Shown here: positions 19,487 through 23,599 of the stretch, in pieces
Numbering within the stretch: position 1 is the first letter of the stretch
Layout: each line of letters opens with the position of its first letter
NCBI RefSeq assembly: GCF_000230735.2
Contig: NC_019962.1
Location: 1,550,001-1,614,000, forward strand
DNA: 64,000 bases
Source of the DNA: Natrinema pellirubrum DSM 15624
GTDB lineage: Archaea > Halobacteriota > Halobacteria > Halobacteriales > Natrialbaceae
Direction: 5' to 3'
Translations under genes and position numbers: made by a program
The notes under the pieces: generated by a model
Told to the model about the DNA's origin: nothing
The model's database searches: none
What the model saw: only the letters and a program-made list of their open reading frames with translations

Positions 19487-19560
19487 GGGTTGGTGATCTA
19501 GTCCGGTTATGATACCTCCTTCACACGGAGGAAGCCGGCGGTTCAAATCCGCCCCAACCC
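19487..19560 (+). tRNA. tRNA-Val (CAC anticodon)
   Basis: A complete 74-nt cloverleaf. The acceptor stem is GGGTTGG / CCAACCC. The anticodon stem is CCTCC / GGAGG around loop TTCACAC, giving anticodon CAC for Val GTG codons. The T arm is GGCGG TTCAAAT CCGCC. No intron and no encoded CCA. The 3' half is duplicated 110 bp downstream, so the gene has served as an integration site. Confidence 0.95.
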
Positions 19561-19671
19561 ACTACTTTTGCGCCGAACAACTCGTGAGGCGCAAAGTCGT
19601 GACGTTTGGCGGATTTGAATCAGGGAGTGGAGCGAAGCGGAACGACCGTGGTTCAAATCCGCCCCAACCCA
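19540..19671 (+). repeat. att-like direct repeat of the tRNA-Val 3' end
   Basis: A 22-bp perfect direct repeat starting ggttcaaatccgccc and ending in aaccca occurs at 19540-19561, within and just past the tRNA, and again at 19650-19671. The offset is exactly 110 bp. Tyrosine-recombinase elements leave such copies of the tRNA 3' end. No integrase gene lies between the two copies, so this is a scar, a tandem attachment site or the remnant of a small element. Confidence 0.75.
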
Positions 19672-19926
19672 TTTTCCGACGCGGACTCGTCGCTATGCTC
19701 CTCGTCGTTGCGTCGGAAAAATTGGCACGAATGGATTTGAGCCCAGAGGACAAGCGAAGCGAGTTCTCACGATTCAAATCCATTCATTGAATGGATATTT
19801 TATCATCTCAGATTGTATTTAAAAATCATTCATAATGTGGATTTCTGTACCAGACTAAATATTTGTCTGAATTTATTTCATTCTTAGTGATTACGTTCAA
19901 TGTTACTGTTCCCTCTTTCTCGATCT
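19561..19926. repeat. two tandem hairpin modules after tRNA-Val, then AT-rich DNA
   Basis: Four large inverted repeats follow one another: tttgcgcc / ggcgcaaa (19567-19595), ggcggatttgaa / ttcaaatccgcc (19608-19663), ttttccgacgc / gcgtcggaaaa (19672-19720) and gaatggatttga / tcaaatccattc (19729-19785). The second and fourth have loops that share an agcgaagcg core, so the unit is a pair of hairpins repeated once with a period of about 115 bp. Open frames here only read through the palindromes and are not credible genes. After 19790 the DNA becomes AT-rich. Confidence 0.75.
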
Positions 19927-20484
19927 CTAGTCGAATTCCTTTTCATCAGATGAAAATGGATAGAACACTGATACTGTGAATTCGTCTATTGCAATATAGC
20001 TTGCTTTTAGACCTTTTGTTGCAACGAAAGTTCCAGATTCTGTTGGGGTTTCATAATGTAGGCTCGAGCCATCTAATTCTGCATTAGAACATTTGAAATC
20101 CTCACAAAATATCATATCTTCCACTTTGGATAGAACAAAGTTTTCAACCGGTATTGTCCTAGAAATATTATCTCCAGAACCTTTCCAAGGACTAGAGACA
20201 TCAACTTTTACTGCATCATATTGGTCGCCATTATCATATTTTTGTTCCTTTTTCTCTTTCAATCCAGATCCATGGTATGCAAAAAGTATCTTTTTGAGAC
20301 TTTCTAATATTGGGGCGCCGCGTTGAGTAGTTGAAAATGTGACTTCTCTTTTTTCAGTATTCATCTCTAAGGTTGGATTCTGATCAAGATCACGTTCCCA
20401 ATATACCACATATGGGAGTTGAGATAGGAACTCTAGTATCCGTTCCTCTCTCCAGTATCTCAATCTCTGGTATAAAGAACTTTG
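19927..20484 (-). pseudogene. 3' part of AT-rich membrane-protein gene, split by IS
   Basis: This fragment encodes the last ~185 residues of a protein whose 5' part lies beyond the IS at 20493-21769. It is a soluble, Lys-rich alpha/beta region (VVYWERDLDQNPTLEMN, EVTFSTTQRGAPILES) with two Cys (FCEDFKCSNAELD). The gene is strongly AT-rich and Lys/Ile/Asn-rich, unlike its haloarchaeal neighbours, so it was acquired. A TTG at 20463 is a possible restart but is not a convincing natural start. No family was recognised. Confidence 0.75.
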
Positions 20485-20492
20485 ATTACGAC

Positions 20493-21769
20493 CTCAGCTT
20501 TGCACGCTAGCCTCGGTTGTTGAGTGAACGAAGAGATGATCGATCTCGGTCATAAGGTCATCAACACCGCGGTCATCATTGTCTCGAACCCACGAGAGAA
20601 GGTTGTAGACGGCTTCCTTCAGGGAGTGTTCGAGGTTCGCTCGAAGCGATGACGCCTTCGAGCGAACCGTTCCCAAGGCGCTCGAATCGGGATCAAGACG
20701 AACGAGACTGTAGGCAGCCATCAGGAGGTGCCAGTGGCGACTGGCACCTCCGTCAGTCTGCAGCTCGCAGTCTCCCAAGCCGAGATCCTGCTTCGAGTCC
20801 TCGAAGAACGTCTCGATGCGCCAGCGCATCCCGTAGGAGCGAATGATGTGGGCGGTTGGTGCGTCGGTCTTGTTCGTAGCGAGGTACTTGATCGGGTTAT
20901 CTTCGTCTCCGTCGGTCTCTTTCTCTGCGATGACCAGCTTCACGTCTCCCAACTGGGAGACGGGAAGCTTCTTCGTCCAGATGTGATAGGTTTCGTCGTC
21001 AATATCGCGCTCAACCGTGTCGATGCGCTCTTCCAGCGCATCGACGCGGAGCTCTTTGCCGGCGTAAGTCACCTGTCGATTGCTCCGGAGCGGGCCGATC
21101 CAGTCCTTGCCGTAGGATTCGATGTGTTCAGGAAGGCCAGAATCGTGAGCGAACCACGAGTCGAAGAGGTAGGTGTTCGCAGGCACACCTACCTCTTCTT
21201 CGAGTTCGGTGATGATCTCGCGGGCGAGGTCGTACTTGGTGTCGTGGTCTTGGTCATCCTCGTCTTGCTTTTCGTAGAGGCGGAAGGTGAGCGGGTAAGC
21301 GGTTTTGTCGTCAGCGTAGAAGGCGTAGATGAGGTCTTGCCCCCAGACAGTGTCACCTTCGGCGTGATCGTAGAAGTGGCCGACGCCGGGGACTTCGTCC
21401 CCGGCTTTCTCGGTGATCGTGTCGTCGAGGATAATGTAGCCATCCGTTGACCAGCGTGTTTCACCGTGTTTCTGGAGTTCTTCAAGGCGTTCGTGGTTGA
21501 ACTGCTGTTCGTCCCAGTCGTACTCGGTGAGGAACTTGTTGAGAGCGCGTTTGCTGTTGGCTGGAAGGACTTCGCGTGCGATGCCCGCCACGGTCTTGTT
21601 GCTGGCCGCAACAAGACCTGTGGCGTAGGTTTTGGCGTGATGACGTTGTGCTGGAGACAGCGACTCGAACTCGTCGAACGCACGCGTACACGACAAGAAG
21701 TCCGTAATCGGCATCATCCGTCTTTGCCACCGCCTACGTCACGCTCCTACTTCAACGTGCAAAGCTGAG
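20493..21769 (-). mobile_element. IS element (IS4/IS701-like), 1277 bp
   Basis: The ends are a 14-bp perfect inverted repeat ctcagctttgcacg / cgtgcaaagctgag, flanked by an 8-bp direct repeat attacgac (20485-20492 and 21770-21777). One transposase gene fills the element. Removing the IS plus one repeat restores a single reading frame across the split gene. Its higher GC differs from the AT-rich host gene, marking it as a later arrival. Confidence 0.92.
20494..21717 (-). CDS. DDE transposase of IS4/IS701-like element
   Basis: A 407-residue transposase. Catalytic landmarks are YIILDDTITEKAGDEVPGVG (first Asp), NTYLFDSWFAHDSGLP (second Asp) and RWRIETFFEDSKQDLGLGDC (the Y-x2-R-W-x-I-E-x-F signature with the catalytic Glu). 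The N-terminal helical domain starts MMPITDFLSCTRAFDEF. The stop TGA overlaps the terminal inverted repeat, so the element is compact. The reading frame is intact, so the element could be active. I could not decide between the IS4 and IS701 families by eye; the 8-bp target repeat argues against the usual 4-bp IS701 pattern. Confidence 0.9.
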   Translation of the reverse strand: MMPITDFLSCTRAFDEFESLSPAQRHHAKTYATGLVAASNKTVAGIAREVLPANSKRALNKFLTEYDWDEQQFNHERLEELQKHGETRWSTDGYIILDDTITEKAGDEVPGVGHFYDHAEGDTVWGQDLIYAFYADDKTAYPLTFRLYEKQDEDDQDHDTKYDLAREIITELEEEVGVPANTYLFDSWFAHDSGLPEHIESYGKDWIGPLRSNRQVTYAGKELRVDALEERIDTVERDIDDETYHIWTKKLPVSQLGDVKLVIAEKETDGDEDNPIKYLATNKTDAPTAHIIRSYGMRWRIETFFEDSKQDLGLGDCELQTDGGASRHWHLLMAAYSLVRLDPDSSALGTVRSKASSLRANLEHSLKEAVYNLLSWVRDNDDRGVDDLMTEIDHLFVHSTTEASVQS

Positions 21770-22726
21770 ATTACGACTATATTTCAACCTACATATTATT
21801 CTCTCACCACCGGCTATTGTTTTTTGTTGTTTAGTAGAACTTAGCAGTGCCTTAGATACTTTGGTTGTATAGAAACCTATATGTCCAGAATTGATAGAAT
21901 CAACAACAACTATGGCCGTGTTATTTTCAATTAATGCTTCTAACGCCCAATCATATGGCCACAGTTCCTTTTGGAATTGTCCATCATCAAAGTACAGATC
22001 CTCAGGAAGAGAAAAAGTGAGAGTTGCTTTCCCTGAAAAATGCCCCTGTGGTAAGTATTTCTTCTTCCCCTCGACAAGTATGTATGAGAATTCATATTCA
22101 AATTCATTACCGTCAGTATTTAGCGAAATATTGTCGTTCTTAAAACGATTATTCAATCCTTCTTCAATATCCCACTTGCTTGGTATTGCGGCTTCCCTCC
22201 AGCCTAAGTATGAAAATACTACTGTTCCTACCGTCAGTATTATGCTGAGAATTGTTATTTCATTATCTAATGACCATCCGGCTATAACTACAAGAGTAGA
22301 AATAAAGACATCAAACTGTGTGTTCCATACATATATAAATCCAAGACTGAGGGATGAAATCATTGATATTTGGTAGCTTTTCGGGTGGATTCTTCCCTCC
22401 ATTCTTTGTTTGCTTATATACAGCAAGAATATTATTATCGATAATGAGTTCGATATATAAAAGTTGAAAAGGAGGCTGATAACACCATATATCAAACATA
22501 GTATCAATCCAGACACTATTGCTGCGATTATATTTTTCTTGATTATCTCTTTTAGATCTTTGATCTTTCCTCCACCACCAAATATAAAATATAAGATTAG
22601 CAATAGTAGAATGGTAGAGAATATAATGGGTGAATCTGCTATTTCACTCCTAGAAGCGAGAGATATATCGGTGATAGTAGAGAAGTTGATTTGACCGGTT
22701 CTACCGACGTTATACGTTAACCTCAT
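21770..22726 (-). pseudogene. 5' part of AT-rich polytopic membrane-protein gene, split by IS
   Basis: This fragment encodes 319 residues before the insertion. Five to six hydrophobic helices occupy the N-terminal ~190 residues (IIFSTILLLLILYFIFGGGG, IIAAIVSGLILCLIYGVISLLFNFY, ISMISSLSLGFIYVW, VFISTLVVIAGW, ITILSIILTVGTVVFSYLGW). A cytoplasmic region follows, with strands such as EYEFSYILVEGKKKYLPQ and TAIVVVDSINSGHIGF. Joined across one attacgac copy it runs into the fragment at 19927-20484, giving 504 residues (…RLKYSRN|QSSLYQRLRY). The reading frame extends ~6 codons into the IS. The family is unknown; AT-rich codon use marks acquired DNA. Confidence 0.8.
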
Positions 22727-22843
22727 CTATCAAAAATCAACTAGCCTGTTTATCACTAATCCTTTTCGTTCCAGTAGATATAAATTAGTTGAGTGTATTA
22801 CATGATGACTATTCATCTGATAAGCTAGCTAGATTGGTTGATG

Positions 22844-22990
22844 CTATGAATCAACCTTATTCGCTACCACTGCAGACGGCTGACGACACCCACAGGGCCA
22901 CGCATAGCATTCCCCGGGGCCGAGACAGTGGGTGATCAGTACGTCGCGGCCACAGCGTGAACACGTCCCGAGCGTGCCGTCGGAACTCAT
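22844..22990 (-). CDS. small zinc-knuckle protein (48 aa), island-edge
   Basis: A 48-residue protein starting MSSDGTLGTCSRCGRDVLITHCLG. It has a C-S-R-C pair and later Cys residues (GECYAWPCGC), five Cys in all, consistent with a zinc ribbon. An alternative ATG 20 codons upstream is less likely because that stretch is Arg-rich. Its last codons fall where GC content drops into the AT-rich island, so the C-terminus may have been altered at an island junction. The function is unknown. Confidence 0.5.
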   Translation of the reverse strand: MSSDGTLGTCSRCGRDVLITHCLGPGECYAWPCGCRQPSAVVANKVDS

Positions 22991-23110
22991 CTCCCGCCAC
23001 CTCGAGTGCCGCAGTTCTTGGACGGCGATTTCGGGCGGCGCTGGCCGCATCGCTCGAGCCCGCTCGAGCCAAACCCAACCGAATACCGACGCGCTACGGA
23101 TCGTGCGAGA

Positions 23111-23118
23111 CTTTTATG
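23111..23118 (+). promoter_or_regulatory. TATA-like box for the candidate ncRNA
   Basis: The octamer cttttatg lies in GC-rich DNA about 37 nt before the first hairpin of the structured region. This is the position expected for an archaeal TATA box driving a transcript from about 23138. Confidence 0.4.
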
Positions 23119-23136
23119 CCTCGTGAGTAGGTACGG

Positions 23137-23262
23137 AATCATGCTTGCAAACCGCTGGGGTTTGGAAGCGCGTCTCGGGTGCTGGTACACCCGGGACTTT
23201 CGTGCAGTCCCTAGGAGAGCGCTTCCGTTCTCTGATATTGTCGTGACAAACTTATAATTATT
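23137..23262 (+). ncRNA. candidate structured ncRNA with three-way junction
   Basis: No protein gene fits here, but strong base pairing is visible. Hairpin 1 is caaacc-gctgg-ggtttg (23148-23164). A long closing stem, ggaagcgc(g)tctc with gagagcgcttcc (23164-23176 / 23215-23226), pairs 12 bp with one bulge. Inside it are gggtg-ctggta-caccc (23177-23192) and gggact-ttcgtgc-agtccc (23193-23211), abutting as in a three-way junction. A TATA-like cttttatg at 23111-23118 predicts a start near 23137-23140. AT-rich DNA follows. The 3' end is a guess. It does not match tRNA, 5S, SRP or RNase P RNA as I know them. Confidence 0.6.
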
Positions 23263-23311
23263 AGAGGCTGCGTGAATAGATGGGCTGCGACGGCCGCCGA
23301 CCGGGAATCGC

Positions 23312-23599
23312 TCACCCCTCGGAGACCGACTCCGTCGTAACGTAGTACGGCCCGTCCCACTCGCGCACCCAGTCCGGGGCCGCGGGGTGGGCCTGCAACT
23401 GATTCGCCTCGTAGGACTCGTCCGGGTAGACGGTGCCGTCCTCGTCGGTGCCGTCCTCGAGCGGGACGACGTAGGTGACCGGGTCCCGCCCTTCGGCGGG
23501 GAGCAACTGTTTCCGGTCCCAATCGTGTGCCGCGCCCGCCGAATCGGTCCACGTCTGGGGGTGGAACGTGACGGCGACGCCGGATTCGTGATCAGTCAT
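23312..23599 (-). CDS. hypothetical haloarchaeal protein (95 aa)
   Basis: A 95-residue acidic soluble protein starting MTDHESGVAVTFHPQTWTDS. It has haloarchaeal codon bias and Trp/Tyr-rich strands (DWDRKQLLPAEG, PVTYVVPLEDG, WVREWDGPYYVTTES). No Cys, no membrane helix and no recognised domain. It stands alone between the candidate ncRNA and a regulator gene. Confidence 0.6.
   Translation of the reverse strand: MTDHESGVAVTFHPQTWTDSAGAAHDWDRKQLLPAEGRDPVTYVVPLEDGTDEDGTVYPDESYEANQLQAHPAAPDWVREWDGPYYVTTESVSEG

Follow-up and report, generated by a model that had tools for sequence, protein, structure and literature searches.

Structure of the Locus

The element lies in a 64,000-nucleotide stretch of Natrinema pellirubrum DSM 15624 DNA, which is referred to below as the window. 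Its main components are a small open reading frame (ORF) for a putative zinc-finger protein on the minus strand, a palindromic TATA box, and a structured element on the plus strand, followed by another TATA-like box.

22844..22990, minus strand: small zinc-finger ORF in divergent orientation, 48 aa when started at the ATG at 22990 or 68 aa if the ATG at 23050 is used: MSSDGTLGTCSRCGRDVLITHCLGPGECYAWPCGCRQPSAVVANKVDS
23106..23123, no strand assigned: palindrome CGAG...CTCG around TTTATG (23113-23118), probable bidirectional core promoter, kept in about 95 copies
23137..23228, plus strand: structured RNA core, positions 1-100 of covariance model R1, 5' end predicted near A23141
23143..23169, plus strand: alternative extension of P1, which excludes P2; GCTT 23143-23146 pairs with AAGC 23166-23169
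23148..23164, plus strand: P1, 5' hairpin of 6 bp, CAAACC 23148-23153 with GGTTTG 23159-23164
23164..23226, plus strand: P2, closing stem of 12 bp with bulged G23172; 5' strand GGAAGCGC 23164-23171 and TCTC 23173-23176
23215..23226, plus strand: 3' strand of P2, GAGA 23215-23218 and GCGCTTCC 23219-23226
23176..23193, plus strand: P3 hairpin with CGGGTG/CACCCG stem of 5-6 bp, (C)GGGTG 23176-23181 with CACCC(G) 23188-23193
23182..23187, plus strand: P3 loop CTGGTA, hypervariable
23193..23211, plus strand: P4 hairpin of 6 bp, directly abutting P3, GGGACT 23193-23198 with AGTCCC 23206-23211
23251..23265, no strand assigned: right-hand TATA-like box, consensus CTTATATCTACTG (82 copies), 24-25 nt past the closing stem and degenerate in the window copy

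The hairpins which had been described by the sequence-only reading, namely a 6-bp 5' hairpin, a 12-bp closing stem with a single bulge, and two abutting inner hairpins of 5 and 6 bp, were all found in place when the sequence was read directly, and the TATA-like box that it had seen at a proper upstream distance is TTTATG, about 26 nt before position 23141. The minimum-energy fold of 23111-23262 has −54.7 kcal/mol and a z score of −2.98 (2 of 200 shuffles equally good) and contains the same P1 and P3, with P3 extended and the P2/P4 region paired otherwise; since this single fold disagrees on some pairs, the case for the three-way junction rests on comparison. The structure is common to 52 aligned copies and to 101 copies aligned by model R1, and on this comparative basis the structure of 23137-23228 is not a chance fold.

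Distribution of the RNA Family

Homology search with 23085-23320 gave matches in 40 of 100 relatives, typically more than one per genome, and four in the genome of the window. With covariance model R1 matches were obtained in 79 of 121 Natrialbaceae genomes, representing 24 of 29 genera, at 1-31 copies per genome, where the genome of the window has five. The window copy itself scores 75.6 bits against R1 (E 4.3e-14 in 0.85 Mb) and is full-length (positions 1-100), and the R1 matches in six genomes are nearly all above 41 bits, with two weaker exceptions of 32.9 and 28.9. The DNA-pattern matches with a name likewise belong to Natrialbaceae (Natrinema, Natrialba, Halovivax, Halostagnicola, Halopiger, and others); a match on a bacterial MAG contig, which is unrelated, was left out. 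Outside this family two places in one genome (L202 and L211 in G263) resemble true homologs. Copies also occur on plasmids, while one exact pattern of the element gave no match among viral contigs and blastn gave none among phages, so that virus or phage origin was rejected.

At gathering score only tRNA-Val of the window was matched by the 4227 models of Rfam 15, and between 22700 and 23700 nothing was found at E<=5, in agreement with the earlier statement that no known RNA class could be recognized; the literature titles and abstracts that were searched contained no known Natrinema or haloarchaeal RNA of such kind. Judged from its relatives, the element belongs to a dispersed family of small structured RNA genes that had not been catalogued before. 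The original proposal of a new three-way-junction RNA with its own promoter is supported by family conservation, compensatory changes, the lack of an Rfam match, and the lack of a conserved reading frame; it was incomplete in that the element is one of five copies in the genome, has a zinc-finger gene coupled to it in divergent orientation, and has a TATA palindrome that probably serves both.

The window copy is syntenic in two relatives (G004 and G007), and in a third (G005) a deletion starting from the TATA box joins downstream DNA, the RNA being gone and the zinc-finger region kept. No neighbouring gene is fixed beside the family: the 142 neighbours flanking the copies fall into 187 Pfam families, none of which is present in more than four, and the strand combinations of the neighbours (++ 19, −− 19, +− 12, −+ 11) are random. 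As the neighbours are unrelated and their strands random, the element is not the leader of one gene, and a cis-regulatory, riboswitch-like leader was rejected in the absence of both a consistent same-strand downstream gene and a shared neighbour. The location at the edge of a tRNA-Val island, which had been pointed out, is incidental, because copies elsewhere lie among unrelated genes.

The island side of the locus has features of its own. Positions 19487-22877 comprise tRNA-Val (cac) and then the island, which includes a transposase-like ORF at 20494-21717 on the minus strand; three relatives with synteny here either lack this island or have a different one. Near 19650-19781 there is a short stretch matching sequence around the tRNA end in the relatives, which is possibly an attachment repeat.

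Compensatory Changes and Coding Potential

Covariation was evaluated in the 101 model-aligned copies against 500 shuffle controls. Paired cells amounted to 89.4% versus 35–56% when the partners were slid, and double-change cells over all helices reached 154 versus 51 ± 5 in shuffles (0 of 500 as high), counts which lean in favour of pairing because the alignment was fitted to the model and the copies are related. Taken separately, P1 had 85 double-change cells versus 29 in shuffles, P2 had 24 versus 6.9, and P4 had 45 versus 14.8 (0 of 500 in each case); the apical part of P1 is variable, with compensatory changes. The P3 stem CGGGTG/CACCCG is invariant in the 101 copies, most of which were retrieved by a pattern requiring that very sequence, and varies rarely in copies found by the model alone; being invariant, it is uninformative on pairing. 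Hence the covariance check that had been suggested across relatives was positive for the closing stem and the second inner hairpin and uninformative for the first inner stem. RNAalifold on a MAFFT alignment recovered P2 and P3 alone, because the variable helices were misaligned.

The strand was addressed by the departures from pairing. In P1 they comprise 48 G-U versus 5 A-C cells, as expected if this helix evolves as sense-strand RNA. In P2 the departures on the sense strand are 76 A-C versus 3 G-U, arising mainly through changes of the 3' strand, which fits either an opposite-strand RNA or a less constrained 3' strand. A competing pairing of 5' GGCTT with AAGCC covaries too, since copies with CATGG carry or lack AAGCC in a ratio of 69 to 0 and those with CATG in a ratio of 8 to 9 (Fisher p 5e-8, uncorrected for relatedness), and therefore two alternative folds of the 5' end may interchange. 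The earlier claim that no coding frame explains the stretch is borne out: the spacing from the ATG to each of two fixed anchors is spread over all frames (43/36/18), early stops occur in many copies, and the reading frame is not conserved.

Partner Zinc-Finger Gene

The partner ORF lies on the minus strand about 80–260 nt from the RNA, reads away from it, and follows the pattern CPxCG...GP...PCGC, the ORF of the window matching the family profile at E 9e-19; in Halovivax and some Natrialba a different four-cysteine pattern stands in its place. Such a divergent ORF was found beside 58 of 70 RNA copies; the three remaining positions around the RNA gave 1, 0, and 4 of 70, and randomly chosen places 12 of 495. 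In three genomes (G000, G010, and G027) the coupling is practically one-to-one, with 58 of 59 RNAs paired and four zinc-finger loci without RNA, and two genomes (G002 and G034) have neither the RNA nor the protein. Some partner genes are decayed while the RNA is kept, and in a Halopiger genome (G050) there are 12 RNAs without the usual ORF, so the RNA does not need the protein gene in cis. Nine of these twelve (L229-L237) closely resemble one another except for the P3 loop and flanks, and by this similarity the RNA-only copies are a recent expansion.

The protein has 48 or 68 aa in the window and about 48–120 aa in relatives. No Pfam or NCBIfam family matched it above cut-off, and no RNase-like or endoribonuclease domain was found in 10 partner proteins. 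The structure model is a small beta-beta-beta-alpha ribbon of moderate confidence (pLDDT 74), for which the PDB fold search gave nothing at E<=0.001. In Halostagnicola an added N-terminal HalOD1-like domain, just below cut-off, precedes the zinc finger (L087, L089, L101, L117, L119); two of these copies, L117 and L119, appear decayed.

Probable Shared Promoter and Right-Hand Box

The only TATA conserved between the RNA and the zinc-finger gene is the one inside the palindrome, and the zinc-finger ORFs possess a GGAGG-like Shine-Dalgarno sequence and no TATA or AT-rich box at their own −26. The palindrome arms covary as DNA, the arm pair −32/−19 being complementary in 88% of 96 copies (50 G-C, 34 A-T). 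Around the TATA the family has mirrored, outward AATC/GATT initiator-like motifs at a distance of 49 bp, of which the one on the zinc-finger side is degenerate in the window copy, making the symmetry weak there. These features suggest that one palindromic TATA box probably drives both the zinc-finger gene and the RNA.

The right-hand box may be a leftward promoter, a rightward promoter, or an end signal, and in duplicated copies homology stops about 20 nt beyond it. The promoter motif GGGACGTTT (23106-23123) recurs within the RNA after CACCC (23188-23201) in some copies; a promoter-RNA or operator mimicry by this motif was considered and found weak, as mostly 6-7 of 9 positions are identical.

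Hypervariable P3 Loop

Between the invariant arms of P3 there are 6 or 7 nt, which in 86 close copy pairs differ at 0.467 per site, versus 0.05–0.21 elsewhere in the same pairs (5–9% for the neighbouring stems, 12% for the upstream part, and 21% for the spacer); in the closest pair 3 of 6 loop bases differ and 0 of 138 others. Within a genome nearly every loop is distinct (25 of 25 readable in G027 and 22 of 23 in G010), somewhat above random draws. Identical loops were found in 0 of 94 same-genome paralog pairs versus 5 of 15 syntenic orthologs, a contrast which is partly due to the closer ortholog cores (91% versus 83%). A complement of the loop within its own module was not found above shuffles. 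Reverse-complement loops are slightly enriched (14 versus 6.8, p 0.02), and with so weak an enrichment loop inversion was rejected as the only origin of the diversity. This hypervariability could reflect selection for insulation or hairpin-driven mutation.

Proposed Explanation and Alternatives

The near-constant pairing with the zinc-finger gene and the copy-specific loop resemble an RNA-protein module with copy-specific identity. We propose, with confidence evenly divided for and against, a two-gene module consisting of the zinc-finger protein and a trans-acting structured RNA, in which the P3 loop gives each copy its specificity. The palindromic TATA box would be used in both directions, driving the small protein leftward and the RNA rightward; the transcript, roughly 90–115 nt long and starting at or near the invariant CATG, would fold as a 5' hairpin and a three-way junction and work in trans, most likely within an RNP that includes the small protein. 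The loop, exposed and 6-7 nt long, would be the specificity element recognizing its own partner, either a target RNA or a cognate factor, and would keep each copy insulated from its paralogs.

Several properties of the family could also belong to an addiction or toxin-antitoxin-like selfish module, where the loop diversity would prevent cross-neutralization between paralogs: the distribution is patchy with many copies including plasmid ones, neighbours are unrelated, zinc-finger genes decay with the RNA retained, and the genomes tested have both genes or neither. However, small zinc-finger proteins are not known as toxins, the partner has no RNase-like domain, the zinc-finger region survives in G005 after loss of the RNA, and G050 has many RNA-only copies, making this reading rather unlikely. 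Slightly less credence is given to a convergent pair, in which the right-hand TATA would drive a leftward antisense RNA from GGAAGCC and both transcripts would span the structure. The fixed distance of 24-25 nt between this box and the closing stem, the conserved CTACTG side as a possible leftward BRE, and the sense-strand A-C mismatches of P2, which are G-U on the antisense strand, speak in its favour. Against it are a rightward G-A-A-T motif found at promoter spacing on the opposite side of the box, the evolution of P1 as sense-strand RNA, and the degenerate state of the box in the copy of the window.

It is improbable that the zinc-finger gene and RNA form a mobile, MITE-like unit of selfish copies with a structure incidental to mobility. 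The copies are indeed dispersed, with lineage-specific expansions, zinc-finger-less derivatives, and a duplicated unit of fairly constant ends, but inspection of copies showed neither a transposase nor terminal inverted repeats nor target duplications, relatives have the window copy in synteny, and three helices have compensatory changes. A DNA-level site, where the inverted repeats TCTCGGGTG/CACCCGGG flank a variable core of 6-7 bp like tyrosine-recombinase sites with a variable overlap, would explain invariant arms with a variable centre and the slight excess of reverse-complement loops; it is very improbable in view of the single such site per module and of the conserved promoter and P1 G-U pattern, which indicate RNA. 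Least credible of all is a leaderless micro-ORF, whose invariant ATG is exactly at the expected leaderless transcript start, since frames are not kept among copies and early stops are common.

More tentatively, and with some doubt, the two-gene modules may constitute a new archaeal class of paralog-insulated RNA-protein modules, a genome having as many as dozens of them, with the loop diversifying as an identity tag; if so, a single hypervariable loop on an invariant stem would be under diversifying selection in every module. Haloarchaeal small RNAs are numerous; to our knowledge, comparison has defined few of their families, and a dedicated protein partner has seldom been identified. An RNA family of up to 31 copies per genome with a coupled protein and a variable loop provides a testable handle on the roles of small zinc-finger proteins and on the means by which cross-talk between paralogous RNA genes is avoided.

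Comparison with Known Systems

The family shares with those of Rfam a structured non-coding RNA with compensatory changes, and differs in having no matching family there. It is similar to Type III toxin-antitoxin (ToxIN-like) systems as a modular, multi-copy combination of a small structured RNA with an adjoining small protein. In Type III systems the RNA consists of repeats that precede the toxin gene on its own strand, and the toxin is an endoribonuclease, whereas here the partner gene is divergent, each module has one RNA without repeats, and the encoded zinc finger has no similarity to nucleases.

A second multi-copy element was observed in genomes of another family (f17/g54; L193-L222 except L201, L202, and L211), where a TATA palindrome and a three-way junction leader are followed by AAGACCATG, the beginning of a repeated small SWIM-type zinc-finger protein. 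The AAGACC at its start codon could pair with the complementary GGTCTT in the leader stem, which suggests a translational switch. Both elements are multi-copy and have a TATA palindrome, a three-way junction with a GGGTG/CACCC hairpin, and a small zinc-finger protein; in contrast, the SWIM element is a same-strand leader of the protein gene with inner hairpins in the other order. The f17/g54 matches, as a different element preceding SWIM zinc-finger genes, were rejected as distant members of the RNA family, and the two are probably analogous.

The partner protein can be compared with the small C(P)XCG zinc-finger proteins of Haloferax and with Halobacterium Brz, described in the parts consulted as very small proteins with a CxxCG knuckle, some of which regulate genes (Brz) (PMC11241148, PMC6562870, PMC10716476, PMC2253796). 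It resembles them in its length below 70 aa in the window and in the CxxCG first knuckle, and departs from their two C(P)XCG motifs in its second knuckle, PCGC; those parts of the four papers do not mention an RNA partner.

The putative shared promoter of the family resembles the archaeal bidirectional BRE-TATA-BRE promoter with measured starts 49 bp apart (PMC6640164) in its one TATA, symmetric flanks, and 49-bp spacing, which refers to starts there and to motifs here. In that study such a promoter explains antisense transcripts, while in the present family it would join a pair of conserved genes, and this in many copies.
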